This document shows positions 16,539 through 64,000 of a stretch of DNA of 64,000 nucleotides, piece by piece. The stretch is taken from assembly GCA_017506865.1 (NCBI GenBank), contig JAFCMP010000024.1, forward strand, positions 372,001 to 436,000, given 5' to 3'. Positions within the stretch are counted from its first letter, which is position 1, and every line of letters begins with the position of its first letter. This DNA is from Tribonema minus (taxonomy: Eukaryota > Sar > Xanthophyceae > Tribonematales > Tribonemataceae). Position numbers and translations under genes: made by a program. The notes beneath the pieces were generated by a model. The model was not told the origin of the DNA and did not search any database. It was given only the letters and a program-made list of their open reading frames with translations.

Positions 16539-19500
16539 CTACGTGCAGTTGGCCTGCAGGTACAGGAGCAGCGCCTTGACGCGCTTGTAGTTGACCCCCA
16601 AATCCCCCTCCCCCACCCGCAGCTCCCCCTGCGCCCAGACCTGCGTGCCGCCGCCCGGGGTCTCCTCGAACCTGATGCCGAGGTTGTCGGGGAAGCCGAA
16701 GAGGAACGACAGGGCCTGCGCGTGCACGTAACCCGGCTCGTCCCTGAAGATCTTGGTCCTGTGGAGACAGGGGGGGGCGGGGGGGGAGGAGGTGGGTGTC
16801 ATTTCCTTCACGTGTACGTTCACCTACACCACCAAAAACAGATACACCACCGTGTCAGTGGTGTCCTTTAGCAACATGAGGCGGTGACAGCGCACAGCTC
16901 AGCTCATGTTGAGGTTGGGTCCTGTTGGGCACTGACGTGGCTGTTCATGTTTTTGCCTCCCAGGTGTCCTTGATTATCACTTCCGGTAACACGTGCAACA
17001 GCCACATGTTCCATGTCTGCTTGGGTTCCTTGATTGTCCATCTCTGGCGCATTGATATGAAGGCTGAATGAGCAGACAAGGCCTCGACTGACTTTGTCCG
17101 TCAGTGCGTTGTGGCGCTGGTCTGCATGAGAGCTGATTCGCAACGCAACATAGCAGCTGCAGCAGCCTCACCACCACTGTGAGCTGCACACCGCCATAGA
17201 GCAAGGCCCATCTATAGTACTCCTTGAGCCTCAAGTTTGCCTTGAGTGTCAGCGTCCGATGATGTTTGTTCCGCCCCCGTGGGCAGTGCAACATTAAGAC
17301 TCCTGCACTGTATGTAGGCAGTGCACTTCGCATGCCCAAGTATCAACCCTTGGCGGCTCAATTCCTACATGAAACACAAACTTCAACTTCAACTATATGC
17401 ATACCTGGGCTGGAGCGCGAGCCACTCGCGCGCTACCTCCTGGCAAGATGCACGTAGATTCCGGTAGCAAGCTGGACATCCACCATCTGGGCTTTTTTGC
17501 GCCCTATGCAAGAGTCGATCAAAAGTACATGCATACCTCCAGGGGCTGAAGCGCAGCAAATTCCTGCATGAACATAAACTGCAACTTCACACTACATGCA
17601 CATGTATACATACCTGGGCTGGAGCGCGAGCCACTCGCGCGCGACCTCCTGAACCTCGGCAGGCGAGGACTTGAACTTGGGCATGCCCAGGTCCGACACG
17701 TTGGTCTTGGTCGGCGCCACGCGCGTGCAGCCGGATGGGTGCGCACTGCAGAGGCAGTGATTCAAAGCAGAAATCAGGGAGGCGCTAGCGCCATTACATG
17801 AACACAAAAAAAGTGCGCCGCACGCGCACGCGCGCGCTGCGCACCGGCAGTCACGTGCGGCGCCACTTCCGGCAGTTTAAACTCACGAGTACAAACATAC
17901 TGCGCGGGCGCGCGTACATGCTCGCCGGGAAGTGCACAAAGCGTGCGTCGGGGCGCATCGCTATGACGCGGACGTGAACATGCAAGAAGCACGCCGACGC
18001 CCGCGCACCGGCAGCCACGCGCAGCATCACTTCAACTACTTGAAGTTACAAGTACTCACTGGCGGCGGCGGCCTCTCTTCAAGTCACGAGTACTACATAC
18101 TGCGCGCGGGCGCACGCACATGCTCGCCGGGAAGTGCACGTAGCGCGCGTCGGGGCGGATCGTGACGACGCGCGCGAGCAGCATGAAAGAAGCGCACCGA
18201 CGCCTGTGCACATCACAACTTCAACTACTTGAAGTTACAAGTTCTTGCTGGCCACACTTCAATCGCAAACGCCCGCTGGCCGCCACGCGCAGCACGCACA
18301 TGCTCGCCGGGAAGTGCACGTAGCGCGCGTCGGGGCGGATCGTGACGACGCGCACGAGCAGCATGACGATGGTCAGGAAGTTGGCGGCGCCGACGGCGAC
18401 GCCGCCCGCGCCCGTGTCCACAAACTCCTTGAAGAAGAGCGACAGCGCCAGGCTCGCGGCGCCCGCGGCGACGCCCTGCAGCAGCAGCAGAGACACGGAG
18501 GACGTTTGCGTGTTCAAAAAAGAGCGTTTCCAGCTGGAGAGTCCGCTGCGCATGGGACGCGTGGAGCTATGGCTGCGTGCGAGATGTGTACTGTGCCAGT
18601 GAACGGTGACGTAAACGATTGGCAGGTATCTCTGCTGGCGGCGCCCCCGGCGGCGCTCTGCAGTGGAGGAGAAACGGAGGAGGCTCGCGCAGTCAGATGA
18701 TGAGGAGCAGTTCTCACTGCTGATATGACGTGCAGAGCTGATACTAGCGTTGCTTCGCTCACGAAGCGCACGGTGCCAGCGAACGGCGACATCAACGGTT
18801 GCAAGCACCTTGCTGGTGGCGCGCGCGGCGGCGCACTGCAGCAACGGAGACACGGAGGGGGCTCACGCGTTGAGATGAAAAGGAGCGGTTGTTGCTGGAG
18901 AGCACGCTGCGCACGGGATGTGGTGTGGAGCTATAACCCGCATTATTGCATTGCGCCGCGGTCTGAGAAGTGGGCAGTCGGGGGGCGTTTGCTGAAGCGC
19001 AGTGCACATGAGATGTGCAAGACCGCTTGTGATGAAGTTCGTTCCTGAGAACCGCTCGCAGCTTAACAAGTGTGAGGTCAGCGAAGCAGCGCAATCAGCG
19101 CAGCAGATCTGGTGCAGTAGCAGCAATGCCGCGGTGCAGTGATTTCGGTCCTGCTGTGCATATTGCTGGCATCTGCACTTGCAGAGAGAACCAAAAATCT
19201 CATGGCCTTACATCCGCGGGCACATGAGAGAGGCCATCATCAGTGCCGCCAGTGCTCAGTGCTTACTGGATGTATGTATGTATGTATAGCGCGCTTTGCA
19301 ATGATGTGACGATCGATAGTGCGCGCAGCTGCGCGCATCACAGCGCAGCTGCGAGGGTGGTTTGCTCAGGGGATGGCAGCCATCGCCTCCAGAACGTAGC
19401 TGTAAAGCGGTGAATACGCTGCCACATAGATGCAACAAATTTTAATCAGATCAGGATGTGAACGCCACTAATGTTTAGGCTGGTCAACAGAGTGGAAGGG

Positions 19501-20186
19501 TACAGGTGGCTCGGGGACTGATGAATTGCCAGTAGATGGCTCGTGTTGTGTCTGAACTCTGCCTTGAAGGACAGTGCGTACGACGAAGGATGGGACGCAT
19601 TTGTGGACTAAACACAAGCACTTGGGTAGTGTATAGGCTTTCAAGGTTAATACGGTCGCCATTTGGGATTTGCCTCAGGCTTTCAGGAACACCCAATCAA
19701 TCAGACAGCCATGCCGCATCTGAGCAGCGCCTGAAGATTCTGTCCGCGTAAACGCACAATAAATTGACTGGCAGCCATTGCTATGCAGCAGACAACGCTG
19801 GTTTTCGATGAAGTCGGCAGTGCCCGAATAATATACAGCTTTCGCATGCAACCTCTTCCGGACGCCGCTAGCCACTGCAGACATCGCGCAGACAACGCAC
19901 AGCGCCTAGCACACCAGCAGTACTCTCTTTAAAGGACATGGACTCAGCAGTCTCGCTGCTCGGCACTCACAGGGAGGTGGCCCGAGTACGCCGCGAGAAT
20001 GATCTCAGCACCAGCTGCGATCGTAATGCCTCCAAGCGGCGCCTGCAAGCCCATGTGGGGCATGCTTCCACTCCTGGTGCTGTGTCTGGGTTGCTGCCTG
20101 TGTAAGGTGGGCAGCTGGAAACCTTCGGCGTGGCGGGCGAGGAGAAGAGAGCTTAGAGCTGCAGCAACGCCAGCTTTAACGTGCAT
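16539..20186 (-). CDS. Plastid-targeted DUF1499 membrane protein (4 exons)
   Basis: Reconstructed exons on the minus strand: 20186-19971, 18475-18300, 17745-17614 and 16758-16539, phases 0, 2, 2, giving 247 residues. Every junction is GT-AG. The start MHVKAGVAAALSSLLLARHAEGFQLP looks like a signal peptide followed by an AEGF junction, the pattern of bipartite targeting to red-algal-type complex plastids. Exon 2 encodes hydrophobic, probably membrane-spanning segments (ANFLTIVMLLVRVV). Exons 3 and 4 carry the DUF1499 domain: ending FRDEPGYVHAQALSFLFGFPDN, then GELRVGEGDLGVNYKRVKALL, which matches the family hallmark of a D-GVN-KRV motif near the C-terminus. The biochemical function of DUF1499 is unknown to me; plant and algal members are often thylakoid or plastid proteins. 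Introns 1-3 contain degenerate copies of adjoining exon edges (see separate entries). Confidence 0.72.
17401..17440 (-). repeat. Copy of DUF1499 exon 3 donor edge inside intron 3
   Basis: The stretch acctgggctggagcgcgagc and the following 15 or so bases match the last bases of exon 3 plus its splice donor at 17612-17645. A TTCAAC-type run (near 17380-17395) sits directly beside the copy, on its intron side. Confidence 0.75.
17463..17520 (-). repeat. Dispersed short repeat, copy A
   Basis: Reverse-complement copy of a dispersed element also seen at 36676-36783, 50772-50915 and 53625-53690. The shared core reads gcgcgaaaaagcccagatg with variations, preceded by a ttgattctcgctcag-like edge. It lies in an intron of the DUF1499 gene. 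Confidence 0.6.
17917..18240 (-). repeat. Two copies of DUF1499 exon 2 donor edge, with palindromic spacers
   Basis: The last 60 or so bases of exon 2 (18300-18363; start catgctcgccgggaagtgca on the plus strand) recur at about 17917-17985 and, almost perfectly, at 18119-18185, each with the donor-side flank. The spacers contain aacttcaactacttgaagtt-like palindromes (near 18029-18050 and 18211-18230) whose arms AACTTCAA and TTGAAGTT could pair. Confidence 0.85.
18594..18930 (-). repeat. Two copies of DUF1499 exon 2 acceptor edge in intron 1
   Basis: Around 18630-18690 and 18808-18870 the DNA repeats the end of intron 1 and the beginning of exon 2 (minus strand: CTGCAG then GGCGTCGCCGC-like sequence, and the upstream CCTCCGTGTCTC pyrimidine tract). 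The copies extend further and resemble each other, sharing gtgccag-gaacgg-gac-t-aacg at 18594 and 18774. Both keep a CTGCAG acceptor. Confidence 0.75.
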
Positions 20187-20883
20187 CGAGTGTGTTCAGC
20201 TGGAGCCAGCGCGTTTGGTCACAGCTCTCGCGCTCTTTGAAGTTTTAGTTCAAAGGTGTGACGTTCCCCTTCCTGCCCATTTTTATTTTATTTTTGGAAT
20301 TTTTTTGAATGAAGAAAAAAAAAGCATAGAGCGCAAGAGCCTGCATTCACCCATCATGTGCTTTTTTATATGATATAAAGGGCACTGCTCAAAGGTTGTG
20401 CAGTGCGCTGCTGATGCATATGGTTGTTGTGTATGGCTAATCTGCACTATCCTTAGATCAATGCTGACGACCTATGGCGCACTGATATCGACATAATGCG
20501 TCGCTGAGATCTGATGAATGTTGCAACTTGGTTGTCAGTAACGTATGCACATAGCGCATCAGGTGTGCAGTTCCATCACACGCAGGCTGTCAAGATGAGT
20601 GCAATGCAACACAGCGGCTCTGCCCGGCAGTCCATCTTCCTTCACTGCCCCAAGCCATAATGCGACACCACATGCCTGCATGCTAAAGTGAGCTGTAGCT
20701 TGGTAGCTGCTCGCACTTGGCGAACCACCCTGCTTGTCACTGGGACGATCAGGCTGACCCTGTCGGTTCAGTGGAGCAGCGCCACCTCAAATGCGCATGT
20801 GCACCACCTGCCGCCCGCTGCTGCGCAGCTTGCCCCGTTCGCAGCCGCTAGCACCCGCCGCGAAGGCGACATCACCATCACCA
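20187..20883. other. Intergenic region between DUF1499 start and SIS gene end
   Basis: No gene recognised. AT-rich stretches near 20280-20320 and 20370 could form part of the DUF1499 promoter. Confidence 0.45.
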
Positions 20884-22444
20884 TCACTCGAGGTTCGTGT
20901 GCCGCGCCGTCGCCGCCTCAGCGCTCAGCCCCAGCGCGTCCACCAGCAGCACGCACGCGACGTCAAACCACAGCTGCAGCGCGAGCTCGAAGCTGCTGCC
21001 CATGAGCAGCGCGCTCCCCCCCTCCCCCCCCCCCCACCACCACCATGCCCCCCTCCCCCCCCGCCCGTCTCCGACGCCGGCAGGCACGTCGCCGGAACCT
21101 GCAGCACGACATCCGCAATCTCCGCCGCCGCCGCTGGGGGTTGAGATGTGATGATGAGAACGCGCGCGCCGGCGTGGCGCGCCTCGCGGCTCAGCGCCGC
21201 GACGGTGCTGAAGTAGCCCGGGCCCGCGGTCGCGATGAGGAGGTCACCGGCGCCGACGGCGCTGCACGTCATCTCGCCCACCACGGACACCTGTGCGCAT
21301 GCGGGGAGCGTCACAGTTGAGGTTTCGAGTGTGACGACGCGGGGCGGGAGGTGATGACGTTTGCTTCTCATTGCGGAACGATCGCAGGGGACGGAGCTGG
21401 CTGTGGCATTGAAGTTGGTGATGCTGAGGGGGCATATTGTCACCCACCTTGCCGGGCAGCTGCAAGGGCGTCGCCCTGTGACTGGCACACGTGTAGTGCT
21501 GTGCATCAGAATCAGAGGCCGCCAACAGTGCAGATCCCACTCATTCTCATTGCAAGGCAGCTGAAGGGGCGTCACAGTTGAAGTTCCACGCATGAGAGAG
21601 AGTCTCCAGCGCATGTCATTAAAGCATGCAACGACACGTGCACAACAACATTGAGCTCGCTCGTTCAAACAGGATGCGGTGGTTATGGCAGCGTTTAGTT
21701 CAAGATTATCTCGTATGCGCAAGCGCAGGTGGCAGGCAATCATGGGGTGGCACATAACTTTGTGCACTGCTGCTTATTGTAGGTATGTGCATCAGATCAG
21801 AAAAGCCGCTATCGATTTGCTAGGTAGCGCTGATTACGTAGAGAACTGCTGCTAGCAATATCCGAAGACATGCAGACTTATACCGAGCCTTTGTGGCCAT
21901 CAGAGCACCAGCGTCTGGTGACGCGGTTATTGCCAAGCACTGAAGCGCTATCATGCTCTCATGTCCTTTGTGCATGGTTTGCTTCAGCCATCTGCAGCCA
22001 TCAGCGCCATAGTGGCGCCCTTTTCTCCAATCATGACGGGCTGGAGCGCGGTCAGTCACTCCGGCGCCCGCTGATGAAATTCTTACGCTCAGTCTGCTGT
22101 ATCTCCAGTCTAGATGTTGTGCACCAAGGGAGGCGGTGTTCACACTTTGTACATGAAAACTCAGTACAGTGATTCTGTACAACACAAACACATGCTTGCA
22201 GACAGCTCGGGGTCACCCTCCTTGCGAATCGAGCACCGACCTGCAGACCCATATGAAACAGCCTCATGGCGAATCCCTTGATGGCAAGTCCTTCTCTGCC
22301 AACTCCGTAGACGCAGATCCGTTTGGCACCTTTCACCTCCTCGATCAACTGCACAGCCGCCCCTTGAGCAGCCGTCACATTTTCCTGCAGCTCCTTCAGC
22401 GCTTCTGCCAGCACGGAGCAGTACTTGTCTGTCTCGTCTGGCAT
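20884..22444 (-). CDS. SIS-domain sugar-phosphate isomerase, 6-phospho-3-hexuloisomerase type
   Basis: Exon 1 is 22444-22241 (68 residues; start MPDETDKYCSVLAEAL). Exon 2 starts at 21290 after a GCACAG acceptor; both are phase 0. The joined protein reads RICVYGVGREGLAIKGFAMRLFHMGLQ then VSVVGEMTCSAVGAGDLLIATAGPGYFSTVAALSREA, a clear SIS fold of the 6-phospho-3-hexuloisomerase/HxlB type: the VYG-GREG phosphate loop, the VGE-T segment, and GDLLIA-(S/A)G. The C-terminal part (SALLMGSSFELALQLWFD, stop at 20884) fits the family but lies in a different frame from exon 2. The switch falls in poly-C runs at about 21017-21062, so an indel or sequencing error in the homopolymer is the simplest explanation. 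HxlB interconverts hexulose and fructose phosphates in the ribulose monophosphate pathway; whether that is the substrate here is unknown. Confidence 0.7.
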
Positions 22445-22548
22445 GTTGGCGAGGCGATGAAAAGCACCTTCACCAACTTCTCGCAACTTCAACTGTAACC
22501 GCCGCCAACTTCTCGCCAAACTGGGGCACCAGAGCAACAGCGCAAAGC
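22445..22548. promoter_or_regulatory. Head-to-head intergenic gap, probable bidirectional promoter
   Basis: Only about 104 nt separate the start codons of the minus-strand SIS gene (22444) and the plus-strand ankyrin gene (22549). Both promoters must lie within this gap or within the transcribed leaders. I see no clear TATA box. The tract cttcaccaacttctcgcaact and a near copy gccaacttctcgcc occur inside it. Confidence 0.45.
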
Positions 22549-24282: not shown

Positions 24283-26362
24283 TAGTTGCGGTGTGCAGGG
24301 GTGTGTCGAGGAGGAGAAGAGGGAGTGTGTACTCAAATTAAGGGTGGGGACGCTGGCATGCGGCGATGCGTGACGGTGCTTCGCGCGCTGTGTCAGAGTT
24401 TGCATCTGTTGATTCACTATACGAGCCGCAGCCTCTGCGCGTGCGTGGGACACGAAGATACTGTGCACACACGAATTCAAGTGTTCTACATACACACTAG
24501 GCTATAGGACCTTCCCACTACAGCTGCTGCTGCTGCTGCTGCTGCTGCGTCTTCCTGTTTCAAAAGCGCTGTGATGCCATGTGTGCAACTACCCTACATA
24601 GCCTAGCCCTAACCCTAGCCGCAAGCCGACAAGACGCAGGTGAGGTACTGCACACTCATGCACCCGCTTTGTCGCACCTGTCGTGTGTGCGCTGATGTTC
24701 ATCCCTTCTTCAGAGAGCAGCAGCATTTGTCTTTGTCTGTATTTATTCACTGCATCAAATACGCATGTTGATTGCGTCCAGGCGTCGTCAAACAGGTTTT
24801 TCGACTTGCGTTGCATCACACAACCCGGGGCGCACACCTGGCCTGCAATCGTTGAGCCACATGCCTGCTGTGCTCTTCAGACTGCCTCTTCAGCTCGTTC
24901 ATGATCTGCCTTGACGACATCAAACGTAGCGCACCATCAGTCCTGAATCATATTGCCCAGCGCCGCTGTCACTCTGCTCAGCAGAGTTGCGGTCAAGCTT
25001 TGGTGTATCCGTCGTTGCCACTGCAAGCAGCCGGCATTCGTTGGTGAAAGATTACAACCATTTGGCACTTCAAATTCAATGACAACAAAATTGGCAGCAT
25101 GTGCAGGACCAGGCGCCTGCTGCGCCGGCAGCACCAGCGGCAAATGAATATGCATCTCCAAACAGAGGCACGACAGCGCCGCATCCATGCTGCACGTCAA
25201 GCAGGTGTGTGAAATACATGACCCCGTCATCTCATTCAACTGTTGCTCTCGCTCATGTTAAGGTCTGACACACTGCTGTTGCGATGCGATGGACCTGCCA
25301 GCATCGCGCCGCAAGTGATCGCTGCTGACGGCCAGGCTGTGCGCCCCCACCAGTGCGCCATCGCCGGCGCAACACAACACGCAGCCGCAGAAACTGCGCT
25401 CCCATCACAACGATCATGATTGCCGTGCGGCTGCAGCGCATGCCCTAGTTGAACTTGAAGCCATGCAGCCTTGGGAACCGTGTCGACGCCGCCGCAGCTG
25501 CCTGTGCCGACTGCACGATGGCTACGCAGCAGACCGCAAGCAGGTCGTTGTGGCTGCGTAGCACACCGCATCTGCTTGCGCACAGGGCCCGACGAAGCCG
25601 TCCCTGCCCGCAGCCGCAGAAACCGCGCTCCCATTACAATGATCATGATTGCCGTGCAGCACATGCTCTAGTTGAACTTGAAGCCATGCAGCCTTGGGAA
25701 CCGTGCCGACGCCGCTGCAACTATCTGCGCTGACTGCGTTATGGTTGTGTAGCAGACTGCACCTGCTCATGCACAGGGCCCGTCAAAGTCGTCCCTGGCG
25801 CCGCAATCAGGCTGACACTGGCTCGGCAGCTTCGCGAGCGGGACCGCTGAGTCATGCTGCTTCTTCACAGCGGTGCCGTTACTTGCTGCCTGCGCCCGCC
25901 TCGCCGTATTGGCAACCCAACAGCGGTGCGATGGGGACCGCGGCACGGCAATGATCTGCTCCATGCCGTGCGCATTAGTGTGCACTGCCGCCGCAGCCTA
26001 CAGCAACAGGCTGCAGCTACCAGCTCACGACCGCCAGCAGGCGTGTTTTTGCCACGCCACCACGGCCAAGCACACACTCCGTGCTCCGATACACGTGCTG
26101 CAGCGCCACGAGAACGAATGCGGCACATACGCATCTCCCGTGCTGGTTGCAAGAATGGGTGTAGTGCACATGGCTTCCGCGATTGGGTACCATAGCCCAT
26201 GGCTCGCAGCACAGAGCACGGGCCACTGCCTCCTCCGCCGCCGCCGCTGCCGCCGCCACTACCCTCGCCGCAGTGCTACGCCGCCGCTGCAGTCGCAGTT
26301 GTCACCACCGCTAAGGCTCGGCAAGCGCCGGTGGTAGCCGAACTGTCACCTTGGCACCGGTC
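24283..26362. other. Intergenic region with a 229-nt tandem repeat
   Basis: No gene recognised. It contains a CTG tract at about 24523-24547, a short telomere-like CCCTAACCCTAG stretch near 24606, and the tandem repeat at 25381-25810. Open frames around 25850-26260 look unconvincing. Confidence 0.5.
25381..25810. repeat. Tandem repeat, period about 229 nt
   Basis: The stretch starting gcagccgcagaaactgcgct at 25381 recurs at 25610 with few changes over about 150 nt (shared ttgaacttgaagccatgcag, ccttgggaaccgtg and cgacgccgc segments). A partial third copy (cacagggcccgtcaaagtcg) follows at about 25773. No coding function is seen. Confidence 0.85.
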
Positions 26363-29067: not shown

Positions 29068-29099
<32 letters not shown>

Positions 29100-30172: not shown

Positions 30173-35489
<5,317 letters not shown>

Positions 35490-38500: not shown

Positions 38501-40813
38501 GGGCGCGGTCGAGGAGCTGCTGCGCATCATGCAGCGCACGCACATGGAGCCGAGCGCCAAGTTCCTGGCGGCGCTGCTGCCGCTGGCGCAGGACGACGGA
38601 GATGGCGGCGGCGGCGGCGGCGGCGGCGATGACGCTCGCACCCGCAGCGACAGCGGCGGCGCGTCTGACGGCGGCAGCGGCGGCGGCGGCGGCGGCGAGC
38701 AGGCGCTGAGTGCCGCCGACGCGGAGGCGGCGGCGCACATTGCGCGCTGGCTGCGCGCTGCGCGCGCGCCCGGCGCGACGGCGGCGGCGGCGCCCGACGC
38801 GCTGGCGGCGGCGGTGCAGCACCTGAGCAGGATGCGGCGGCCGTGCGAGGCGGAGCGGCTCGCGCGCGTGGTGTGGGCGGCGGGCGTCGCACGCACGCAC
38901 GACGCGTACGCGAACGTCCTGGAGGCGCATGTGCGCACGCGGCGCGCTGACGACGCGACGCGCTGGCTCGGCGAAATGCAGGTGCGCTCGGTCAGGGTTA
39001 TGGCTAGGATTAGGGTTAGGGTTAGGGTTAGGTTTAGGCGAAATGCAGGTGCGCTCGTGCGTACGCGATGTACGCCGCACGCTGGGCTTTCGGCTGAGTT
39101 TGCTGCGTCCTCTGCGGCGCGCTGGCTCGGCGCAATGCAGGTGCGCTCGTGTGTACGTGATGTACGCCGCACGCTGGGCGTTCGGCTCAGTATGTGTGTA
39201 CGCGCGAGAGGTCGTTGCTTGATGCAGGGTCCCGGATTGGCGGGATGTCACACCGGCGTGCGCGTTCGCTGCAGACGAAGCCGTGCGCGCTGCGCGTGAT
39301 GACCCTGCGCGCCGCGGACTCGCTGGTTGCGCGCGTGCGTGCAGCATTTACACGCGATCCGTTGCTTGCTGTAAAGCGCGTGCGCAGTGCATCGTGCCAA
39401 GTAGCTGGTTTGCTGGTTGAGAGCGGTGCATGCACATCGGGGGGCAACTGCTGGCCACGCGATGCACGGCAGTTTGGCGTGTCGAGAGTGACAGCTGTAG
39501 TTCAGACGCAGCGGTCGCGGACGCGTCAGCGCGACGCATGCGCTGCGTGCGGTACTGTCGCAGTCACAGGGCGCGCCAGCGCGCTTACGCGTGGGGAGAA
39601 CGTCAAACCTGTGAAGCGCTGGAAGTTCTGTGTCTGTGCCGCGGCTGTCAGTTCGCCGATCGAAGCACATGGCGGTACTGCAGGTGCACATGATGGGGGG
39701 CCAGCGCGTCTGCCTGTTGCCGCCGTGTGATGGACTGCTCATGCCGGAATCATCGCACGGGCGCAGCATCTTGCGCGGACAGATCATGTGTTGCAGTATA
39801 CTCCAGAGCCACGCTTGCTGTGCGCTTGCTCACTGCTGGCAGCCTTGCAGCGACAGCTGATGGGGGCAGGCACTCTCCAAATCTCAGTCAATGCCTGCGC
39901 GCACGGCGCATGCTCGAACTTCAAGAGTGCTGTCGGCGTTTGCGCTCGCGCGGCGTGTGCTGGTCGCTTGCGGCGCGGCGGTGCCCCTCTGACGCGCGCG
40001 CTACATACAACATGCAGCACATGCGAATGAGTGCATGCGTACCACACGTCAGTACAAAGCCCATCGCATCGGCGTGCCACTCGCACGCATTCGTCGTCGC
40101 GCTCGGCGGCGTGCCGATGCGTACTCCGTGGGCGCAGAGCTGAGCGGTGCGCGCATCGCCCCCTCTCGCAGGCGCACGGCTTCGACGCGGACGAGGGCGC
40201 GCTGCGGCAGCTCATCTATGTGCAGCACGTGGCAGGCGACGCGCGCGCCGCCGTCGCGACGTACCGCTACGCGGTGCGCCTCGGCTACTTCAACCACTGG
40301 AGCGTCATCAGCGCGGGCGCGATGGACCTGCACTGGTTCACCGTGCCCATGGCAATCGCGGCCGTCACCGTCGTGCTGGAGGACATGCGGCGCGCGTGGC
40401 AGAGCGGCGGCAGCGGCGGCGGCGGCAGCGGCAGCAGCAATGAGGCGCAGAGCGCAGTCAACGGCGCCGCCAGCACCGGCGGCGGCAGCAGCACCGCTGC
40501 GCAAGGCCAGGATGATGTCGCCGTTGCCTCCGGCGATGCTGCCTCTGACCCCGACAGCGGCGGCGGCGGCACGAGCGCCGCCGCGGCCGCTGAGCACTGG
40601 GTGCACGATCCGCGGCTCGAGCTGCAGATCATCACGGGGCACTGCCTCGGGCGCGGCAGCCGCAGCAGGCTGCAGCCAGCGCTCATAGAGATGCTGAACG
40701 GGCTCGGTGTGGAGGCGTTTGTGCTGGTTCGCAACCGCGGCGTGCTCGTCGTCTACCACGGCAGCCTGCTGGAGTACGCAGCCAAGGCGCCTTTGGGCGG
40801 CGACGTGGAATGA
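35586..40813 (+). CDS. Pentatricopeptide repeat protein with C-terminal Smr domain (PPR-SMR), 5 exons
   Basis: Exons 35586-36228, 36497-36657, 37354-37507, 38137-38981 and 40172-40813 (phases 1, 0, 1, 0) give 814 residues. PPR-like helical hairpins are visible: TLAVVTLVRAQQMELASAQLAKA, LVAACDACKDAPGALRWLGVMRSRGF, MHACAVQSGYWREALRLLDDL, ALAAAGVARRDWGAVEELLRIM, and YANVLEAHVRTRRADDATRWLGEM. The C-terminus holds an Smr domain: DLHWFTVPMAIAAV (the DLH motif at 653-655) and IITGHCLGRGSRSRLQPALIEML (about 754-776), split by a Gly/Ser/Ala-rich insertion of about 65 residues. PPR-SMR proteins usually act on organellar RNA or gene expression, and the Arg/Ser-rich N-terminus fits organelle import, but plastid and mitochondrion cannot be told apart. 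Exon 4 includes long Ala and Gly runs. Intron 3 and intron 4 contain telomere-like tracts. Confidence 0.82.
36676..36783 (+). repeat. Dispersed short repeat, copy B
   Basis: Lies in PPR-SMR intron 2. It matches 50772-50915 from ctcgctcagggcgcgaaaa through to gaaagtgtctcaatgacaac, with internal indels. See also 17463-17520 and 53625-53690. Confidence 0.7.
38003..38094 (+). repeat. Telomere-like tract flanked by a 17-nt direct repeat
   Basis: GGTTAGGGTTAGGGTTAGC and related units fill 38022-38076. The identical 17-mer gctaccagtgcgcgact occurs at 38003-38019 and 38078-38094, directly bracketing the tract, like a target-site duplication. It lies 43 nt before the exon 4 acceptor of the PPR-SMR gene. 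Confidence 0.9.
38971..39057 (+). repeat. Telomere-like tract flanked by a 20-nt copy of the exon 4 edge
   Basis: The 20-mer gcgaaatgcaggtgcgctcg, which spans the 3' end of exon 4 and its donor at 38971-38990, is repeated exactly at 39038-39057. Between the copies lies GATTAGGGTTAGGGTTAGGG and neighbouring units. A further degenerate copy of the exon edge (gcgctggctcggcgcaatgca) lies at about 39119-39139. Confidence 0.93.
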
Positions 40814-51093: not shown

Positions 51094-53176
51094 ATGGCTG
51101 CGTTCGGGGACGCTGATATGCCGCTTGTACCGAAAAGGGCCACGGCTTACGTCTGGGAAGAGCGATACATGTGGCACAATCCTGGCGTGGCTCTGCCAGA
51201 CAGGTGCGATGCGGTCCGTGTTGCAGTTGTGTGACAGCCTGCTATGTGGTGCTGAGAACGCGCAGTCATAATCTTGTTTCTCTTTCTGGACGAAGCGAAC
51301 TGCCGCCAATCAAGTACATTTGCCGCACTTGATCAGCTCACAAAGATTTATGCTTGTAAAGAGGACGATCGGCCTTTCGGTGCAGACCCGTGCCGCTCCA
51401 GCTTCTTCTGCTGAAGCATTTTTTTGTCAAAGGCAACGTCGCACCCATGCCGTCTCCTTCTGTCCTTGTCACTCGAACTTGCACTGTGCTTTCAAAGCGC
51501 GGCAGCCTCGCACCACTTGCAGACTTGCACCAAGCCTCAGTAGCCTTTTAAGACTGACGCTGTAGGAGCCCCCCCATCCATGCCAACACTCATTCACTTC
51601 ACGTGTCCTGGTTGACCTGCGCGTACAGACATTTGTGGGCTCTCATTGCCCTCAAACCGCCATGCGTCGCATACTTGCATGCCCCCGCCGCCGCCGCCGC
51701 CGCAGCTTCACGCAGCCGGCGCGGCACTGGGAGCACGCGGAGACGAAGCGGCGCCTGCACAACCTGCTGGAGGTCAGCGGCATGCTGACAGCGCTGAAGA
51801 GGGTGCGGGCGCGCGCGGCGACGGACGCGGAGCTGGCGTACGTACATACCCCGGAGTATATCGCCAGAGTGAAGGTGCGTCGGCTGAGAGTCCATGCTAC
51901 TTCAACTTGAACATACGGGTGAGGGCGTGCGCGGCGATGGACGCGGACCTGGCGTACGTACATGCCCCGGAGTACATCGCCAGAGTGAAGGTGCGTCAGC
52001 TGAGAGTCCATGCTACTTCAACTTGAACATGCTGACGGCGCTGAGGATGGTGAGGGCGCGCGCGGCGACGGATGCGGAGCTTGCGTACGTACATACCCCG
52101 GAGTCCGCCAGAGTGAACGTGCGTCAACTGAGAGTCCATGCTACGTGAAGTTCAACTTGAAGAGCATGCGGGTGAGGACGTGCGCAGCGACAGACGCGGA
52201 GCTGGCGTACGTACATACCCCAGAGTTCATCGCCAGAGTGAAGGTGCATCAACTGAGAGTCCATGCTACTTCAACTTGAACAAGTTGGCAGTGCTCGGAG
52301 AGTGTGGGCGCGCGCGCGGCGACGGATGCGGAGCTGGCGTGCGCACAAAATGGAGGACTAAACATTGCCAGAGTGAAAGCGTGCATCGGCTGAGTCGCAG
52401 TATGGGGGTGGTGCGCATTGCAGTTCAGCGTGAAGTTTTCGATTCGAGTACGTGGCGTGCGACGCGCCCCTGATCCGTACTGCCGGCGTGCAGCGCAGTC
52501 TGCCACGGTGCACGCAAAGCCAAGAACGTTCATTCAAGTACATGAGGTAGATACTTCGATGTGCTGCGTGCGTGAGGCCTGTAACCACGCGGCGCGCCCC
52601 CTGCAGCAGCGCTCCCCTTGTAGCAACGCTCACCCCGATTGTGCGCTCAACAAGGCACACAACTCGCAAGCGCTGCCATGCACCGTCTTGCAAACCATAA
52701 AGTTGATGGTTAGATTGTTCGTGACAGCATATATGGCCGCGCCGACGGCGGCACCACCTGGCTACCTGCCATCATGTTGTGGACAATCACGCGCAGCGTG
52801 CAGCAGCTCGGTGGGTCCTTGCCGTCCGTGTCTCGCAGTGAAGCTTTGAGATTCACCCGCGTCACGGCGGCACGCTGAGAGTCAACTCATTGAGACGCTA
52901 AGCTGATGGCTCAATGAAGGCAAGCGGGCTCTCTCACGGCGCGCGACTTGATCGCTGCTGCTTCGGGCGCCGAGCGCTGCCAGCGGCGGCGACACCCGTG
53001 TGCTCTCGCACAGTCACTCGCAGCGCAGCGTGCGCGCAGAATGCCAGAAGCCCCCCCCCCCCCCTCCCCTTCTCGGCCACTCCTCCTCTCCATCACTACA
53101 GTAGCGAGCGAGCGAGCGGAACACGCATCACAATGCCCGAACTCGCTCCTCTTTTCTTACACATGACACCGCCTTA

Positions 53177-53211
<35 letters not shown>

Positions 53212-56200
53212 ACTGCTAGGCGCTGAGCGCCGGCGGCGGCGGCGACATCGGCGAGGAGACCCACATCGACAGGGGCGGCTTCGACATTGTGGCGCTCGCG
53301 GCGGGCGGCGCGCTCGCCGCTGTCGACGCCGTCCTCTCCGGGGCAACGCTCAACGCGTACGCGCTGCTGCGGCCGCCGGGGCACCACGCCGTCGCCGACA
53401 ACGCCATGGGCTTCTGCGTGTTCAACAACGTGGCGGTGGGGGCGCACCACGCGCTGCGCGGCGGGGGCGGCGGCGGCGGCGGCGGTGCTGCCGTGCGGCG
53501 CGTCGCGATCGTGGACTTCGACGTGCACCACGGCAATGGGACGCAGGTGCGCGCGCGCGGGGTCTTACGGTATAGAGCACTGTCATCTGGTGTATGATTT
53601 CCATGTATGTGCATGTTCTGTTGATTGATTCTCGTTGAGTGCGTGAAAAAGCCCAGATGGTTGATGTCTAGCTTGCTGCGAGAGTTCACATGTATCTTCA
53701 AATGTACCTCTCAGAACTCAAAAGTTTTTCAATGCGCATTTGACGATCGTTTCTACTTCTATGTGTTTCCATCGGTGTGGTACTAGACTACGCATGTAAA
53801 TCTCTGTGCATTCTCTGACGTATGTACACCCAGAGGACGCGGCGATGGCAGGGAGCGTCACCTGAGCGCTGCGCAGCACTTCAACGCCGCGCGCACGCGC
53901 CACCGGCGCCGCTGCATGCTAATGAACCCGCCGCATGCGTCGCGAATGCTCTCGAGCGTGTCTCGATTCAATGACATCAGTGCTCAGCAGGGCGCTGCTG
54001 CCCAGCAGCGCTTGGCGCACGTGCGGCCGCGCACCGGCGGCCGGGCTCGCTGCCGCGCACCTTTGCTTAGCGCTGCTGAGCTGCGCTGCTGCTGCTGCGG
54101 CCAACCTGGTTGCCACTCGCGACCTCAACGCGGCGACATGTCTCTGTGTTATTCGCATGCCTGATTCATTTGCAGTTCGTATGTTCATGATTGCTGTAGA
54201 CGCTGCGGAGTCCGCCGTCGCCGCGCGGACGGCGCCTGAGCAGTGCAACTCATGTTTGCACGCGTCCTTCACACGCGGTACCGTCACTTGATAGATGGGG
54301 GGCGTAGGTTGACGTGTTGTCCGCGAGCCGCGCAGCGCCATTAGGGTTGGGGCTCAACCTGAGGCCAGGGCAGCTGAAGGCAGACGTGCGCAGCAGGGGT
54401 CCGCAACAGCACCGCGCCTGCATGCGTACTGCGCCTCCCAACTTCAACTGTCACAAATGGCGATTTTCAACATAAGAAAAATCTTGTTCCACGAGCACTG
54501 ACGTCAGCTGCTGCCGTGCGGAGTTCAGGACTTGCGCCACTGCGTCCGTGCCCCCGCGCCGCGCAGGCAGCGTTCGAAGCCGACCCGCGCGTGCTCTTCG
54601 TGTCCCTCCACCAAGACGGCAACTACCCCAAGACGACGGGGAAAGTGGGCGAGGTGGGGGTGGGGGACGGCAGGGGGACGACGCTCAACGTCCCCCTCCC
54701 CCCCGGCAGCGGCGAGGGGGCGTACGCCGCAGCGTTCGAGCGTGTCGTGGTGCCAGCGGTTGACGCCTTCGAGCCCGATCTGTTACTGGTGTCCGCTGGT
54801 GAGGACGTCGGGCCAAAACTTCATCTTTTGAGTTGAACTTTGCAGTAGAAGAACAGCTGTTTCCTGATGCTCGCTGGTGAGGACGTGAGGTCGGGCCGAG
54901 TCATGAACTTAAACTTTGCAGTTGAACTTTGCAGTTTGAAGAACAATCGCCGGCCGTCGATGCCATCGAGCCCATTGCTGGTGCCCGCTGGTGAGGACTT
55001 GAGGTCGGGCCTGCCACTGTTAAAACATTTCAGTTAAATTTGCAGTTTTAAGAGCAATCGACGGCCGTCGATGCCTTCGAGCCCGACCTGTTGCTGCTAG
55101 CGCACATGAGCAGCGCGCCCTTCCGTGCCGTGGCCTTCTGAGACATACAGCACCCGTTGACAGTGTTTGCTGCAGCGAGTATTGATTCTCACCCCCCCTC
55201 CCCTTCCCCCTTCTTCCACTTCCCCCCCTTCCCCCTTTCCCCCCTTCCCTCGTCCCCCTTGCCCCCTCCACCGCAGGCTACGACGCGTCGTTCATGGACC
55301 CCCTGGCGCACATGATGCTGAGCAGCGAGGCGTTCCGCGCGATGGCGGCGCGCCTCGTGGCGCTCGCGGAGCGTCACTGCGGCGGCCGCGCCGTCTTCCT
55401 GCACGAGGGCGGCTACAGCGACGTGTACGTGCCGTTCTGCGGGCTCGCGGTCGTCGAGGAGCTCGCTGGGTGCCGCACGCAGGTGAGTGAGTCATCGAGT
55501 AAATGAGTCGCAAGCTGAGCCGTGGCGCTTGCGGAGCGTCGCTGCGGCAGCCGCTCCGTCTTCCTGCACAAGGACGGCTACAGCTCCGTGTACGTGCCGT
55601 TCTGCAGACTCGCGGTCGTCGAGGAGCTCGCTGGGTGTCGCACGCAGGTGAGTGAGATCATTGAGTCAGTGAGTGAGTGAGTGAGTCACAAGCTGAGCCG
55701 TGGTGCTTGCGGACCGTTGCTGAGGCGGCCGCGCCGTCGTCCTGCACGAGGGCGGCTACAGCGACGTCTACGGGCCATTTTGTGGGCTCGCGGTCGTCGA
55801 GGAGCTCGCTGGTGCCGCAGTCAGGTGAGTGAGTGAGCAAGTAAGTAAGTAACTGAGTGGGTCAAAAGCTGAGCCGTGCTGGTCGGCGATCTTGCATTTG
55901 TGTGTGCGAGTCGGGCGCCACGCTCAGGTAGGAAAGAAAGTTAGAGTGAGCCATTGGCTGAATCTTTGAGTCATTGACAAGTGACTGAGTCAGCGAGTGA
56001 GTCATCGGCTGAGCTGTTGTGCATTCTGGAGCCGACCGCGTGCCACGCACTCAGGTGAGTAAGTGGGTGAGTGAGTCACTGGCTGCGCCGTGCAGCGCCG
56101 TGCGCGCGGCCAGCTAGGACGACAATTGCGCGAATCTCCCCTGTATCTGTTGCGAGAGGGGGGCGGGCGAGAGACGTGCCGCGGCGCTGTTGTGGCACAA

Positions 56201-57036
56201 GGGCAGCCGCAGCGACGCGCGCGTGCGCCGTGCGTCACTGGCGTAAGGCGCAGAGCTTGTGACGAGGAGTGGACACTGCAGACCATTGACAGAGTGCTGC
56301 CGTCGCCTGAGGCGCTCGTGCCCCCGACGCTACGTGCGTCCGCCGCTATCACGGCCGTGCTGGAAGACGCGCAGTAGAAATGCTGCAGTAGTATTGCATA
56401 GTGATTATTCTCACAATACTATACTGTGGCGATGAACATGTGGCGCGCTCGCCTGTAGTGCATAGTGATTATTCTCACAATATGATATTGTGACGATGAA
56501 CATAGGGCGCGCTCGCCTGCTTGCGCAGCAGGAGGGCCCGCAGACCGCTGAAAGCAGTCATGATGTGCCAAAGGCGCTCGTGCAGCCGACGCCATGTATC
56601 TGCGCAGCTGCGCCAGCCAGCGCACACGCATCATGTTTGCCTTGTGCCACAGCCCTCGTGGCACTGTTTGAAGAGCGCATCATTCAAGCAGCATCTATGC
56701 GAGCGATTTGCAGCGCGCGTAGAGAGAGTGACGGAGCCCCCTGATGGTGTCTGCACGCACGGCAGGTACGACATCCCCTACTGGAGAAGGCACAGGCATG
56801 GTATGCAACAGCGCCGCTGCGCATGGTATGGTATGGCATGGTGTGCGCAACAGCGCCGCTGCGCCAGCCCGTGCTCACGCAGCATCTGCCGTCTGTACGC
56901 GCGACAGGTGCGCGACCCCCTGCTGGCGGAGGCGCAGGCGTTTGCGCAGCAGGCCCTGCAGCCGCACCAGGACGCCGCCATCGCGGCCGCGGAGGCCAAC
57001 CTGACGCTGCTGCGCGAGGCCATCGCGCGGCGGTGA
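51094..57036 (+). CDS. Histone deacetylase, class II/acetylpolyamine-amidohydrolase type (6 exons)
   Basis: Exons 51094-51203, 51706-51874, 53220-53546, 54567-54798, 55277-55482 and 56908-57036 (phases 2, 0, 0, 1, 0) join into 390 residues. The start lies in accATGG. The zinc hydrolase removes acetyl groups from lysine side chains. Motifs in order: AYVWEERYMWHNPG (19-32), QPARHWEHAETKRRLHNLLEVSG, AYVHTPEYIARVKALSAGGGGDIGEE, RPPGHHAVADNAMGFCVFNN (active-site His 148 and 149), AIVDFDVHHGNGTQ (zinc ligands Asp194 and His196), VSLHQDGNYP, VSAGYDASFMDPLA (zinc ligand Asp282), LHEGGYS (Tyr326), and the tail RDPLLAEAQAFAQQALQPHQ typical of this class. All catalytic residues are present. A Gly run interrupts exon 3. 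Introns 2, 4 and 5 hold arrays of exon-edge copies; intron 2 ends in a CTG tract serving as pyrimidine tract. Confidence 0.92.
51907..52350 (+). repeat. Array of four copies of deacetylase exon 2 donor edge in intron 2
   Basis: The exon 2 end and donor at about 51803-51905 recur at about 51915-52020, 52045-52135, 52165-52270 and, more degenerately, 52295-52385. Each includes a gcggcgac-gacgcggagctggcgtacgt-like core (AATDAELAYVHTPE in exon frame), a gccagagtgaa(g/c) followed by GT, and a ctgagagtccatgctacttc tail ending in ttcaacttgaac. The first two and the fourth copy keep the exon's GT at the same place. Confidence 0.92.
53179..53214 (+). repeat. CTG tract forming the pyrimidine-side of an acceptor
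   Basis: Twelve or so CTG units run up to tactgctag, the reconstructed acceptor of deacetylase exon 3 (53219/53220). Confidence 0.85.
53625..53690 (+). repeat. Dispersed short repeat, copy D
   Basis: Lies in deacetylase intron 3: ttgattctcgttgagtgcgtgaaaaagcccagatggttgatg and following agcttgctg match copies A and C. Confidence 0.65.
54870..55110 (+). repeat. Copies of deacetylase exon 4 donor edge in intron 4
   Basis: The exon 4 end (ttcgagcccgatctgttact, then gtgtccgctggtgaggacgt) recurs partly at about 54868-54900, 54955-55010 and 55066-55105. Two of the copies keep gctggtgaggac, the donor. Spacers contain repeated ttgaactttgcagtt-like sequence. Confidence 0.85.
55520..56065 (+). repeat. 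Array of copies of deacetylase exon 5 in intron 5
   Basis: About 130 nt of exon 5 plus the donor (55356-55495) recur at 55523-55655 and 55700-55830. The copies keep the tcgcggtcgtcgaggagctc and gctgggtg-cgca-caggtgag segments. Shorter degenerate copies end in ctcaggtaggaa (55925) and ctcaggtgagtaa (56061). gtgagtgagtgag-type spacers have expanded between them. Confidence 0.9.
56758..56805 (+). repeat. Copy of deacetylase exon 6 acceptor edge
   Basis: cacggcaggtacgacatccc and the following ctactggagaaggcacaggca parallel the real exon 6 start at 56901-56940 (gcgacaggtgcgcgaccccc then tgctggcggaggcgcaggcg). Here an acceptor-side edge is copied upstream of the exon. Confidence 0.7.
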
Positions 57037-59054
57037 GGCAGGCATCGGGGGGCGATGCATGAAGGATCACGAGGCCAGGCGCGCCTGGAGTTACATACTT
57101 CAAGTGCGGGAGTTGGCTGTCTCAACGGAAACGGACGCGGTCGCGTGGCGGCGGGTGACGCTCGCATGTGCAAGTACCACACGCTGCGCTCTGTTTGTTG
57201 CCAAATTCAAGTTGAAGTGACCAGTGGCGCGGCGGCGGCGGCGTGGTCGCGACGACACTGCTACATGTCAGGCGATTGCGGTACGCGTAAGTTGCACCCA
57301 CACCTTCACGTGCCATGTCATTTCCGGCGGCACTTGGCGCGGTTGCTTGCGCATGCAAAAAGCGGCCACCACTTTGCTGCTGCATAAGAGCACGGCCGCA
57401 GCATTTGCAGAGGCATAGCGTGCATAATCTGCCACCGCATTGTTGCCCCCTTACTTGCTGCGGCACACATTCGTCAACAGGCTTGCATGTGCTAGTTGTC
57501 ATCTGTTCATGGTGATGGAGCTGTGTATTTAATGAAGGCGTGTACACCACTTCAACCCATTGGCACATGTGTCCCGCACCTCTGTCTGAATTCAACTTTC
57601 AAGGTTGTGTCCGCGCTTGCCGGCTTGATGGTGCAGTGCGTTCTATGCAAATGCGGATGGGGGGGGCGGGGGGGGGGGGGGGGGGTCCTAAAGGCAAATG
57701 TAGTGGGTGACATGGCGCGCAATAAGAACACTCTCGTGCGGTCACAGTGCGAGCAATGTTGCACCGCAGCGGCATGCTGCACGAATCAGACACAGAGCAG
57801 GAACGCACAGCCATACAGATTGCGCAAGGTACCAATAAACCACCAGATTGTGATGCCAATCTGACGTCTAATTCATGATACAGACACAGCACCAGGCACA
57901 TAAACCTGCCCAAACTGTGGCCTGCAGCGAACAGGGCAAGTAATGCGCCGGTGCCACGGGCGCTGCCGCCCCCCAAAGTCTACTCGAAGTACATAAAACA
58001 GGAACGTCACCGGCGCACCGCGCGGCGCGGCGGCGCGCATGCAGCCAAGGCAGCACGCAGCGCCCGCCGCGCGCGTCAGAGCAGCGTGCCACACGTAAAG
58101 CGCCGCGGCTGAGGATCGACCCACCACATGAGGATCAGCACTGGCAATCTGTGACGCTGGCTTCGGCAGTCCACCTGTGGATTCGTTGCGCCGGATGAAC
58201 TGTGATCCCCTCCCGATACGGGGGGGCAGTCCACAGATGGATGAACTGTGAGCCCCCTCGATGCGGGGGGCCGGGGGACGAAAGTCACTGCTCTTTCACA
58301 TCTGCCGGCACATGTCGTTGCCGCCGCTGGCCCTGCCCTGGCTCTTGGCGCCGCCATTGGGCGCCACCTGGTCGCCCTGAGAGTGTCTGCGATGTCAAGC
58401 GCACAACGTCATGCAACGACGTGAGAATCATGTATCATGTATGCCCAGCAGCATGTGATCACAACCGATGGCCCACTGCTTGTAGCATGTCTCTGGTGCA
58501 TTTGCAAGTAGCGTAGCCTCGATGGTTCCGTGGGCAGCTGAGCAGCGTTGCAGTGAGTGATGTCACGCCCCTGCTGCCATCGGGTCTGCAATTGTTTGCA
58601 ATGGCATCGCAGCGCTCCAACGCATACGCAATCACCACGCCAGAACGTTGCCAGCGGAAGTTCAACTGCAAGTTCAACAGCCACACAGTTCATGTTCATC
58701 ACCAGACATCCGTCATCAGTTCTGTAATCCGCTCAGATGTGGACAGCTGATGCATGCCCTGCAGCAGTCACCGTACAGGCGCTCGACGTTGCATTCCGGT
58801 ACCCAGAGGCAGCACACGGAGCCGCGACGCGAACATGTTCCGCTGCACCTGACGACCCATGAATATCAAGTCTCGTATAATCCCCCAGAGTCTGCGCAGG
58901 CGCGCGTCGAGGTACAGTTACACGCACCATTCTGGTATCTGTACGACACTCATGCCTGCAAACTGCGTCGACACAAAGCCTGGGTGCACGCGAGCACTGG
59001 CGCGGCCCGCTCTGACCGACAAGCACAAATAATCATCACCATCAACCTCAAGTC
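57037..59054. other. Intergenic region between convergent genes
   Basis: No gene recognised. It lies between the convergent 3' ends of the deacetylase and the coiled-coil gene. It has a long G run at about 57660-57687 and a short imperfect direct repeat near 58190-58275 (gatgaactgtgagccccctc, gatgcggggg and a similar upstream copy). Confidence 0.45.
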
Positions 59055-62000
59055 TCACCGCCGCTGACGCTCCGCGCCGCGCCCCCGCCCCCTTGCCCCC
59101 TCCCCCCCCCGATTGTGCTCCGACCTCCGCGCCGAGGCGTCGAGCACTGCCTCATCCTCATCGGCAGCGGCGGCGGCGGCAGCAGCAGCAGCAGCAGCGC
59201 CGCGCAGCTGCAGCGGCTGCAGCAGGACGGCGGGCGGCGAGCCCGCGGACTGCCGCAGCCGCGCCGCCTCCAGCGCCGCCCTCGCCTGGAGAGTCAGAGT
59301 CGAAGTCAGAGTCAGGGGGTGTGAGGTGCGTCACAGGAGTGTGTGTGGGAGGGGGGGGGCTGTGTGGTCATTGCTGAGGGCAGCAGCTGCACAACTGTAG
59401 CTTGTTGAGAGGTGCATCACAGGTGTATCGGGGGTGGGGGGGGGCGGGGGGCATGGACTGGCGCAGCCGCACCGCCTCCAGCGCCGCCCTCGCCTGTAGA
59501 GTCGGAGTCCGGGTCAGGGTGTGTGAGGTGCGTCACAGGTGAGTTGGGTGGGGGGGGGTGGGGGGGGCGAGCGCTGCTGTGTGGTCATTGCTGGGGGGCA
59601 GCAGCCGCACAGCTGTAGCTTGTTGAGTGACGTAGCAGCCATCACCCTCAGCAATGCGAGCCAGGCAGAGCGACCACGTTTTGCACTGCTGCCTGGTGTA
59701 CATGAGCTACGTGGCACGGTACCACAGTACTCCCCCGCCTTAGCAGACCCCGCATCGTTCAGCTTTGGCGGCCCCCGCAAGTACTGCACTGCAGACACTC
59801 TCAGCCACGGGCATTTCTGCCCACGTCACAAACTTGCCACTGCGCACAGCACGACCAGCATCGCTGCTTGTCCCTTCAAAGTACATACGGCATTGTCGCC
59901 GCCACGTCACAAAGCTGCCACCGCAGACAGCACGACCAGAACCGCTGCTTCCCCCTTCTAAGTATATACGGCATCATCGTCGCCGCCGCGGCGCGCGCAC
60001 CTTCGGCAGCCCCGGCGAGTGCGACCCTGCGGGATCGGTCGTGGCGCTGCTCGCCGGCGATGAGCGCCCGCTGTGGCTCCGCAGCGACGCCGCATCCACG
60101 TCCCCCTCCCCCTGCCTCTCGTCTTCCGACTCCCCCCCGCCCGCGCCCCCCGCCGCGCCCCCGCCGCCGTTCTGCCTGCCCCGCGCGCCGCCGCGCGGCG
60201 GCGACCGCGGTGACGCGAGCGACGGCGGGTAGGCAGGTATGTGCGGGTGCGGCCGCTGCGCGCCGCTGCCGCTGCCGCCGCCATCTGGGGGGTCAGGGGG
60301 CTCGCGGCGGCGGCGCGTCGCGTCCGCCGCCGCCGCCGCCTGCTGCGAGCACTGGCGCAGCAGCTCCAGCATGCGCTGCTCGAGCACGCCGTGCGACTGC
60401 TTGAGGGCGTCGTAGCGCGCCGCCGCCGCCGCTGCTGCCGCCGCCGCCGCCGCCTGCATGCGCGAGCGCGGCCGCGGTGCGAAGATGGGTTACGCACTGT
60501 ACACGGAGGAGGTCAGCGCCTGTAGGCGCGCCTGTAACGTATGCTTGCAGTGACAACAATAGTAACGGACATGGGCGATGGTGTGGTGCATTGTGGTGCT
60601 ACTCCCGTCGGCGTTGCTGCCGCCGCCGCTTCGGCCACGCCTGCGCTTACTGGTGTACAGCAGCGGCGCAACGACACCGCATGAGGCGGCACGCGTGTGC
60701 GTGAGGCACACTAGGGTGACCCTAACCTTAAACCATGTACTTGAAGTATGAGTAGTTCAAGTGCAGCACACCGCTCCCCTACCTGTCCCCGCTCGAGCGC
60801 GGCCTGCAAGCCCCGCACCGCAGCAGCGCTCTCCGCCAGCTGCGCCTCCATCTCCCCCGCACGCGCCTCGGCGCACGCCGCACGCTCCGCCGCCCCTGCA
60901 TCGCCATTGCGCACAGCAGGCGCCGCGTTCGCACCAGCCCTTAGCTCTTCTCTGGTAGCGGCCGGCACCGCCGCTGCCTCCGCTGCTGCCGCGCCTTCCG
61001 CTGCAGCTGCTGCTGCGCCCTCCGCCGCCGCTGCCGCCGCGCTCCGCTGCTGCTGCTGCTGCTGCTGAGCACTGTAGACGCGGTGCAGCAGCGCGCTGCC
61101 GCCTTCGTCCGCGGGCGCCGCCGCGGCATCGAGCGCGCCGAGGCCTGCTGCTGCGGCGGCCACGGCAGCGGGCAGCGCGGCGCGGCACGCGTGCAGCTCG
61201 CTGGTGAGCGTCCAGCAGCGCGCTTCCGCTGCCGCCGTGCGCTCCTCCAGGGCCTCCACCTGCTCCTCTCGCGCTCTGCATGGGCGCATGTATGTATGTA
61301 TGGGGGGCAGGCGCATGCATGAGAAGCGCTTCGTACCTACACTTTCTAAGAGGTCGATGAGGACAGCAAGCAGGGCCTCCACCTGCTCCTCGCGCGCTCT
61401 GCGTGGGTGTATGTATGTATGGGCAGGCGTATGCATGAGAAGTGCTTCAGGCCTACATTTTCTGCATGTAAGGTCAGCGAGGACAGCTGACAGCGTTGCT
61501 TGGCACAATTGCCGCCGGCGCACTGGTTCCAGCGGGCAGGGCCTCCACCTGCTCTTCGCGCGCTCTGCGTGGGTATGTATGTATGGGCAGCCGCAGGCAT
61601 GAGAAGCCATTCATATGTGCACGCGCTGTGGGGAGAATGAGGCCAATGGGCGGCGCGGCGTTGTCTGGCACGCATGTAGGTCGTGCAGCCGTGCCTATGT
61701 AGTTACTGCCTCAGCCGTCGCAGTGCGCACGTTCACAGCCCGGAGTGCTCTTTCCGGTGCTCCACAGCCCATGCAATGCACGTCATGCTCTTTCTGGCAT
61801 ACGCAGAAAGGAGATGCGACAGTAAAACTGTGTGATGCAACGGTCAGAGCGGAATGCTGAGCCCACCAGTGGACGTTTAGTAAACATAACAATCATACCG
61901 CATGTACCTAGGATTGGCAGAAGTGTACTTGGGTAGCTCGTGCATAAATGGGCTTACGCACTTTGACGTATTTGAATACATTTTCCGCAAATGCCTCATC

Positions 62001-63545: not shown

Positions 63546-63649
63546 CTGCGCAGCGCTCAAACAGAACTTCAATTAAGTGATCGTGCGGTAAGAAGGCTTG
63601 CATTGAATACCAGGGGGGGTGCCACATGCGCAAGTCTCGCTGCTGCAAA

Positions 63650-63835
63650 AGAGCCTTCTGCTGCTCTGCCTCCTTCTCCGCCGACTGCCGCCGGTGACGC
63701 TCCGTCAGCTGCGCAGCGCTCAGCACGGCGCAAGTTCCGCCAAGCGAATGCGTGTGACGTAGGGCTGCATGGCATACAGGGGAGCCTGCCACATGCGCGA
63801 GCCTCGCTGCCGCAGCAGACCCTTGTGCGCCTGAG
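63650..63835 (-). repeat. Copies of coiled-coil exon 1 acceptor edge
   Basis: ctccttctccgccgactgcc, gccggtgacgctccgtcagc and tgcgcagcgctca at about 63670-63722 repeat 63505-63560, the acceptor and start of the first exon listed. The segment near 63610-63650 (ccacatgcgcaagtctcgct, gctgcaaaagagcctt) has a further copy at 63789-63825. The 63670-63722 copy preserves a GCGCAG acceptor and the LTERHRRQSAEKEAE frame. Confidence 0.88.
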
Positions 63836-64000
63836 CTGCGGTCGTCCGGTCAGTCGTGTGGCGTAACAAAGGCGAGCCGGGGCAAGCGCCACATGAAGTG
63901 GCGCTGCCTGGACAGCGGTGGAACTAGACGCCACATGCTGCAGCTCCGCCGCTGCATCAGCTTCATCGTGCTGACACGCGCGTCGCCGAGGCTGACACAC

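Follow-up and report, generated by a model that had tools for sequence, protein, structure and literature searches.

Tribonema minus is a xanthophyte, or yellow-green alga, and all comparisons reported here were made within this one alga, whose genome comprises 158 Mb in 554 contigs. The stretch analysed, called the window in what follows, consists of 64,000 nt of one contig (JAFCMP010000024.1). Its genes have introns that carry copies of the exon edge they adjoin, splice site included. With curated borders, copies of a border's own edge were found in the adjoining intron at 11 splice borders belonging to five genes, which bears out the original prediction, made from the letters alone, that at least ten introns of five genes have this property. 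The duplication clusters that hold a border are shared out between the DUF1499 gene (three), the TGS1-type gene (two), the PPR gene (one), the histone deacetylase (HDAC) gene (three) and the coiled-coil gene (two), with none in two further genes. The edges and their copies are as follows.

17387..17656, minus strand: DUF1499 gene (PF07386), donor edge at 17613 with one intronic copy
17837..18372, minus strand: DUF1499 gene, donor edge at 18299 with two intronic copies
18450..18923, minus strand: DUF1499 gene, acceptor edge at 18475 with upstream copies
32309..32972, minus strand: TGS1-type gene (PF09445 in exon), donor edge at 32881/32882 with five intronic copies, periods 111 and 209, in two alternating versions
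33027..33304, minus strand: TGS1-type gene, start (33027-33085) of the exon beginning near 33086, with a gene-upstream copy at 33246-33304
33782..34385, minus strand: TGS1-type gene, donor edge at 34329/34330 with intronic copies, two of them counted across the site
38950..39197, plus strand: PPR gene, donor edge at 38981 with copies, the first of them separated from the edge by a telomere-like TTAGGG-type stretch (38990-39038)
51779..52351, plus strand: HDAC gene, donor edge of exon 2 (51706-51874) with four intronic copies, a nested array with periods 116 and 253; splice site fixed by the public protein
54752..55102, plus strand: HDAC gene, donor edge at 54798 with two intronic copies, GT in both
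55351..55851, plus strand: HDAC gene, donor edge at 55482 with two intronic copies, GT in both
59249..59637, minus strand: coiled-coil gene, acceptor edge at 59285 with an upstream copy, AG kept
61242..61616, minus strand: coiled-coil gene, acceptor edge near 61273 with upstream copies

Three of the five gene names first proposed are upheld by Pfam: HDAC, TGS1-type methyltransferase (PF09445, matched within an exon) and DUF1499 (PF07386). For the PPR-SMR and coiled-coil names, Pfam gave no supporting match with two exons of the former gene and one of the latter. The spliced HDAC query matched a public protein of 358 aa (P0001), 'putative histone deacetylase, partial [Tribonema minus]', at 100% identity over 94% of the query. 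This protein joins the exons as modelled, except that its exon 1 is 51169-51203. None of the copies is present in it, and only the outer exon edges are used.

Local and nested tandem duplication

Because blastn self-comparison misses periods shorter than about 60 bases, an ungapped offset scan was written, which records a local direct duplicate pair wherever 40-base windows share at least 30 matches; two short tandem arrays of the window, found otherwise, are indeed absent from the blastn result. Within the window the scan yields 91 local direct pairs and a single inverted one, against none in both Markov shuffles, while the pairs that blastn gives within 4 kb, 37 in number, are all direct, some of them being ankyrin-repeat or simple-repeat pairs. 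Loci outside the window were drawn by Pfam matches to the HDAC, mitochondrial carrier and ABC families, together with six longer stretches around such matches that were picked for their exon hits and not for duplications. Over this genome sample, the offset scan (53 sequences, 271 kb including the window, periods up to 900, 14 overlapping loci dropped) finds 471 direct pairs and 3 inverted ones, and blastn (53 stretches, 200.8 kb, 11 overlapping loci dropped and a few overlaps remaining) finds 230 direct pairs and no inverted pair, one dropped locus having inverted hits in a simple-repeat stretch. Exon-edge copies of the same kind occur in HDAC, carrier and ABC genes outside the window, so that the phenomenon is, as had been supposed, tied to no single gene family and genome-wide. 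To be sure, it is not everywhere: 17 of 49 short loci showed no duplication by blastn. At positions 1931-2337 of locus L040, copies of the 3' end of an apparent terminal exon, on its stop-codon side, lie downstream of it, a hint that edges devoid of a splice site are also copied.

The units are short, with a median shortest period per cluster of 108 bp (quartiles 71 and 150; 133 clusters), and they form nested arrays, as in the HDAC exon 2 array (116/253) and in the TGS1 array (111/209), where the copies alternate between two versions. The HDAC exon 2 copies are 77-90% identical to one another and 83-92% identical to the exon; the first three, 87-90% alike, are closer than expected if each had been copied independently from the exon. 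In L040-L042 no duplicate partner was found beyond 1.2 kb; L039 is an exception, with two similar genes. There (C532:243500-253499), the two carrier genes lie about 5 kb apart and form a larger tandem duplication. When the HDAC array, the one array searched, was compared with the whole 158 Mb by a tool that skips simple repeats, it was reported at its own locus only. Successive local tandem duplication fits copies that are local, almost always direct and nested, as well as the single locus of the array searched; reverse-transcribed or transposed copies do not fit. The original prediction had held that copying always goes into the intron. Spare copies do fall there, but no directed process is called for, because after a tandem duplication the exon continues into the first copy at a donor, or is preceded directly by the last copy at an acceptor, so that the remaining copies are intronic by geometry alone.

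Content and decay of the copies

The copies hold exon and intron sequence alike. At donors, identity is 0.887 on the exon side and 0.853 on the intron side; at acceptors it is 0.86-0.89 and 0.72-0.82, respectively. In a few pairs similarity seemed to end sharply at the splice site, an impression that fails in general, the intron parts of donor copies being alignable at 0.853 identity. Mismatches between exon and copy are spread over the three codon positions as 101/982, 86/985 and 143/990 (52 pairs, including the L020 pair, a probable protein-domain repeat; pairs from the same array are not independent of one another, and HDAC exons 2 and 4 and TGS1 were left out). This near-even spread with a surplus at the third position fits neutral decay of the copy, combined with ordinary synonymous change in the exon. 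Their decay is thus that of non-coding DNA, which speaks against spare exons. The proposed use of the copies as alternative exons is not supported, given both the codon positions and the omission of the copies from the public HDAC protein.

Splice sites were followed from 44 curated sites, 40 of which could be placed uniquely, five of these 40 having no copy across the site. In agreement with the early impression that the dinucleotide is usually kept, it persists in 61 of 69 site-spanning copies, with GT in 51 of 59 donor copies and AG in all 10 acceptor copies. Selection on the copied sites is at most weak, since site-spanning alignments by themselves lean towards retention, and a role as decoy splice sites is accordingly at most weakly backed by these counts.

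The hexamer-like and telomere-like spacers described at first belong to the less well supported features. Of 50 gaps between copies, 12 contain a short TTCAA-type motif (7.5 expected), 5 the 8-nt form (1.1 expected) and 3 a telomere-like motif (1.4 expected): the motifs are somewhat above expectation, and the counts are too weak for a signature to be built upon them. As an observation in its own right, the hexamers show a strand bias in the genome loci, GTTGAA-type units outnumbering TTCAAC-type ones by 75 to 26 within 250 nt past donors (34 donor sides), with 0 and 11, respectively, in the 50 nt before acceptors (24 acceptor sides). Reverse-complementary hexamers therefore sit at opposite ends of introns, perhaps allowing RNA pairing. 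Telomere-like TTAGGG-type stretches lie inside PPR-gene introns (38022-38077 and 38990-39038), the second at a duplication junction; in 317 kb, overlapping loci included, the perfect TTAGGG unit was seen repeated twice or more in 18 runs.

Borders, background and the origin of the copies

Preference for borders was measured by comparing duplication clusters, or the borders they cover, with shifted positions (1000 or 2000 shifts). The window (seven genic spans, 30 curated splice borders) has 16 clusters, of which 11 hold a border; shifting gives a mean of 5.5, and none of 2000 shifts reaches 11. When borders are counted instead, clusters cover 11 of the 30, with 6.8 expected (77 of 2000 shifts). 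For the coiled-coil gene only the two copy-bearing borders had been curated, hence a rerun that omitted its span and added two borders: 9 of 12 clusters then hold a border against 4.9 (8/2000), whereas by borders the result, 9 of 30 covered against 6.2 (243/2000), is not significant. In L040-L042, where nine borders were placed roughly, the figures are 10 of 18 clusters against 5.5 (12/2000) and 11 of 27 borders against 6.4 (58/2000); restricted to the 18 exactly placed borders, they become 9 of 18 clusters against 3.6 (1/2000). Since the copies were in view when these exact borders were curated, the unbiased figure is the one obtained from the edges of domain hits in 52 loci with 106 clusters, where 18 of 99 edges are covered (donor 12/56, acceptor 6/43) against 9.2 by circular shift (3/1000). 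A tile test (border tiles 16/53, flank tiles 119/893; ratio 2.3, interval 1.4-3.8) was replaced by the cluster-shift tests because flank tiles hold unrecognised neighbouring exons; edges of exons that are unknown dilute the border count. With all border tests taken together, borders are roughly twofold over-represented.

Duplication is nevertheless common away from borders. Over the 52 loci, 10.7% of non-core bases lie in duplications, as against 3.9% in the interiors of conserved exon cores. In L065 and L066 none of the eight clusters touches a known border, the exons in a 4.5-kb gap of L065 being unknown. Together with the shift tests, these two loci show that it would be too strong to place almost all clusters on borders. 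The window has its own examples.

11326..11438: 49-bp tandem duplication outside modelled genes
12104-12187 and 59820-59986: further clusters off any known border
25372..25802: duplication outside modelled genes, with no known exon there
56385..56523: 64-bp tandem duplication in the last HDAC intron, without exon sequence

The first third of the window further contains several related long open reading frames of ankyrin-repeat appearance (919-2589, 5204-7164, 9443-11199, 13925-15690 and 22282-24282), at the ends of which no edge copies were seen. A process specific to exon borders, as first envisaged, is not supported in the face of this background.

We consider it probable that frequent short local tandem duplication acts in T. 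minus as a ratchet that lengthens introns and leaves fossils of exon edges with their old splice sites. Duplications with a typical period of some 70-150 bp would arise at a high rate, presumably from staggered breaks or paired nicks that are filled in and end-joined; break fill-in with end-joining would be the most likely chemistry. Those falling inside exons would be purged, and those crossing a border would be tolerated because the whole exon and the first donor (or last acceptor) stay intact. Re-duplication of stretches already duplicated would produce the nested arrays, and the copies would then decay as non-coding sequence while introns grow. That copying lengthens introns, as was first proposed, is supported. 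Part of the border excess would then be a matter of visibility: some excess would follow from the slower divergence of exon-copy pairs, which stay recognisable longer. The divergence ratio of intron to exon is about 1.3 on the donor side by our own arithmetic, and larger at acceptors. Visibility as the whole cause was considered after the tile test and not kept.

Several observations sit uneasily with this ratchet. In the tile test the border excess rises to about 6 (interval 1.7-16) in the youngest class, pairs of at least 88% identity, and the excess as measured is larger than donor-side visibility alone suggests. The 61 dinucleotides kept represent a slight surplus over the 50-54 or so that drift would leave by our own arithmetic. 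Lastly, the 16 near-tandem junctions, with aligned length minus period ranging from -11 to +8, are few and worn and are mute on end-joining. There may be a residual border preference beyond visibility. It is on such a preference that one would found a border-directed process, in which transcription, splicing-linked R-loops, nucleosome phasing or the GC step at exon edges promotes breakage and duplication there above background. We find this unlikely, though far from negligible: the cluster-shift excess recurs in the window, in L040-L042 and at domain-hit edges, and the border signal is strongest at 88% identity or more, but visibility favours borders too, the L065 and L066 clusters lie off known borders, and the window count by borders loses significance without the coiled-coil span. 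Doubtful to the same degree is its fuller version, according to which exon-intron borders in T. minus act as genuine hot spots for splicing- or transcription-linked duplication, repeatedly stamping exon edge and splice site into the intron in a gene-specific growth free of transposons.

Two further explanations fare worse. That selection maintains the copies as functioning alternative or decoy splice sites is very improbable: 61 of 69 still carry GT or AG (AG in 10 of 10), but the other eight have lost it, codon positions diverge almost neutrally and the copies are absent from the public protein. Involvement of introner elements, or of some other dispersed mobile family, is extremely improbable: the copies are gene-specific and adjoin the edge they repeat, and the one array searched, simple repeats being skipped, was reported at its own locus only, which leaves the GTTGAA-type hexamers near donors and TTCAAC-type ones near acceptors, vaguely reminiscent of inverted ends, as what speaks for such elements. 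Classic AGGT intron gain was set aside as well, since by reading a subset of introns the copies are found near their own edge rather than at the opposite end of the intron.

Significance and known systems

The lengthening of introns without transposons is rarely visible. Here, many fossils of different ages are preserved at conserved exon edges of one genome, so that it becomes possible in T. minus to measure how fast tandem duplication proceeds, what junctions it leaves and how far it prefers borders, and the copies show the fate of duplicated donors and acceptors. In duplicated alternative exons, exon sequence is duplicated beside the exon; the T. minus copies resemble them in this respect, but comprise the edge only and show no coding constraint, the codon-position mismatches giving no sign of the constraint that functional duplicated exons should display.

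The pattern was not found in Tribonema in the literature searched, which was limited to open-licence PMC papers, and no absence is claimed. Among described systems, a tandem duplication crossing an intron-exon boundary is on record in the potato RdRp gene (PMC4974935). The likeness is close, except that a new intron arose there, whereas in T. minus existing introns became longer, copies are nested, many genes are affected and no new intron is seen between copies. Tandem genomic duplication is a recognised route of intron gain (PMC3443670), and its hallmark, direct tandem duplication of exon-containing DNA, is present here. Drosophila intron gain has been linked to break repair (PMC3296678), and small tandem duplications are formed from filled-in break ends by CST-Pol alpha primase and end-joining (PMC8355091). 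The latter are direct, adjacent and short, as in T. minus, where inverted products are likewise practically lacking (471 pairs against 3); they concern human and mouse cells and units mostly below 100 bp, as against a median period of 108 bp in the alga. Introners also add sequence to introns across many genes, but as dispersed families copied between genes (PMC9860276), while the T. minus copies are local and gene-specific. Taken together, the T. minus pattern is a variant of known tandem duplication, a real and genome-wide mutational habit.

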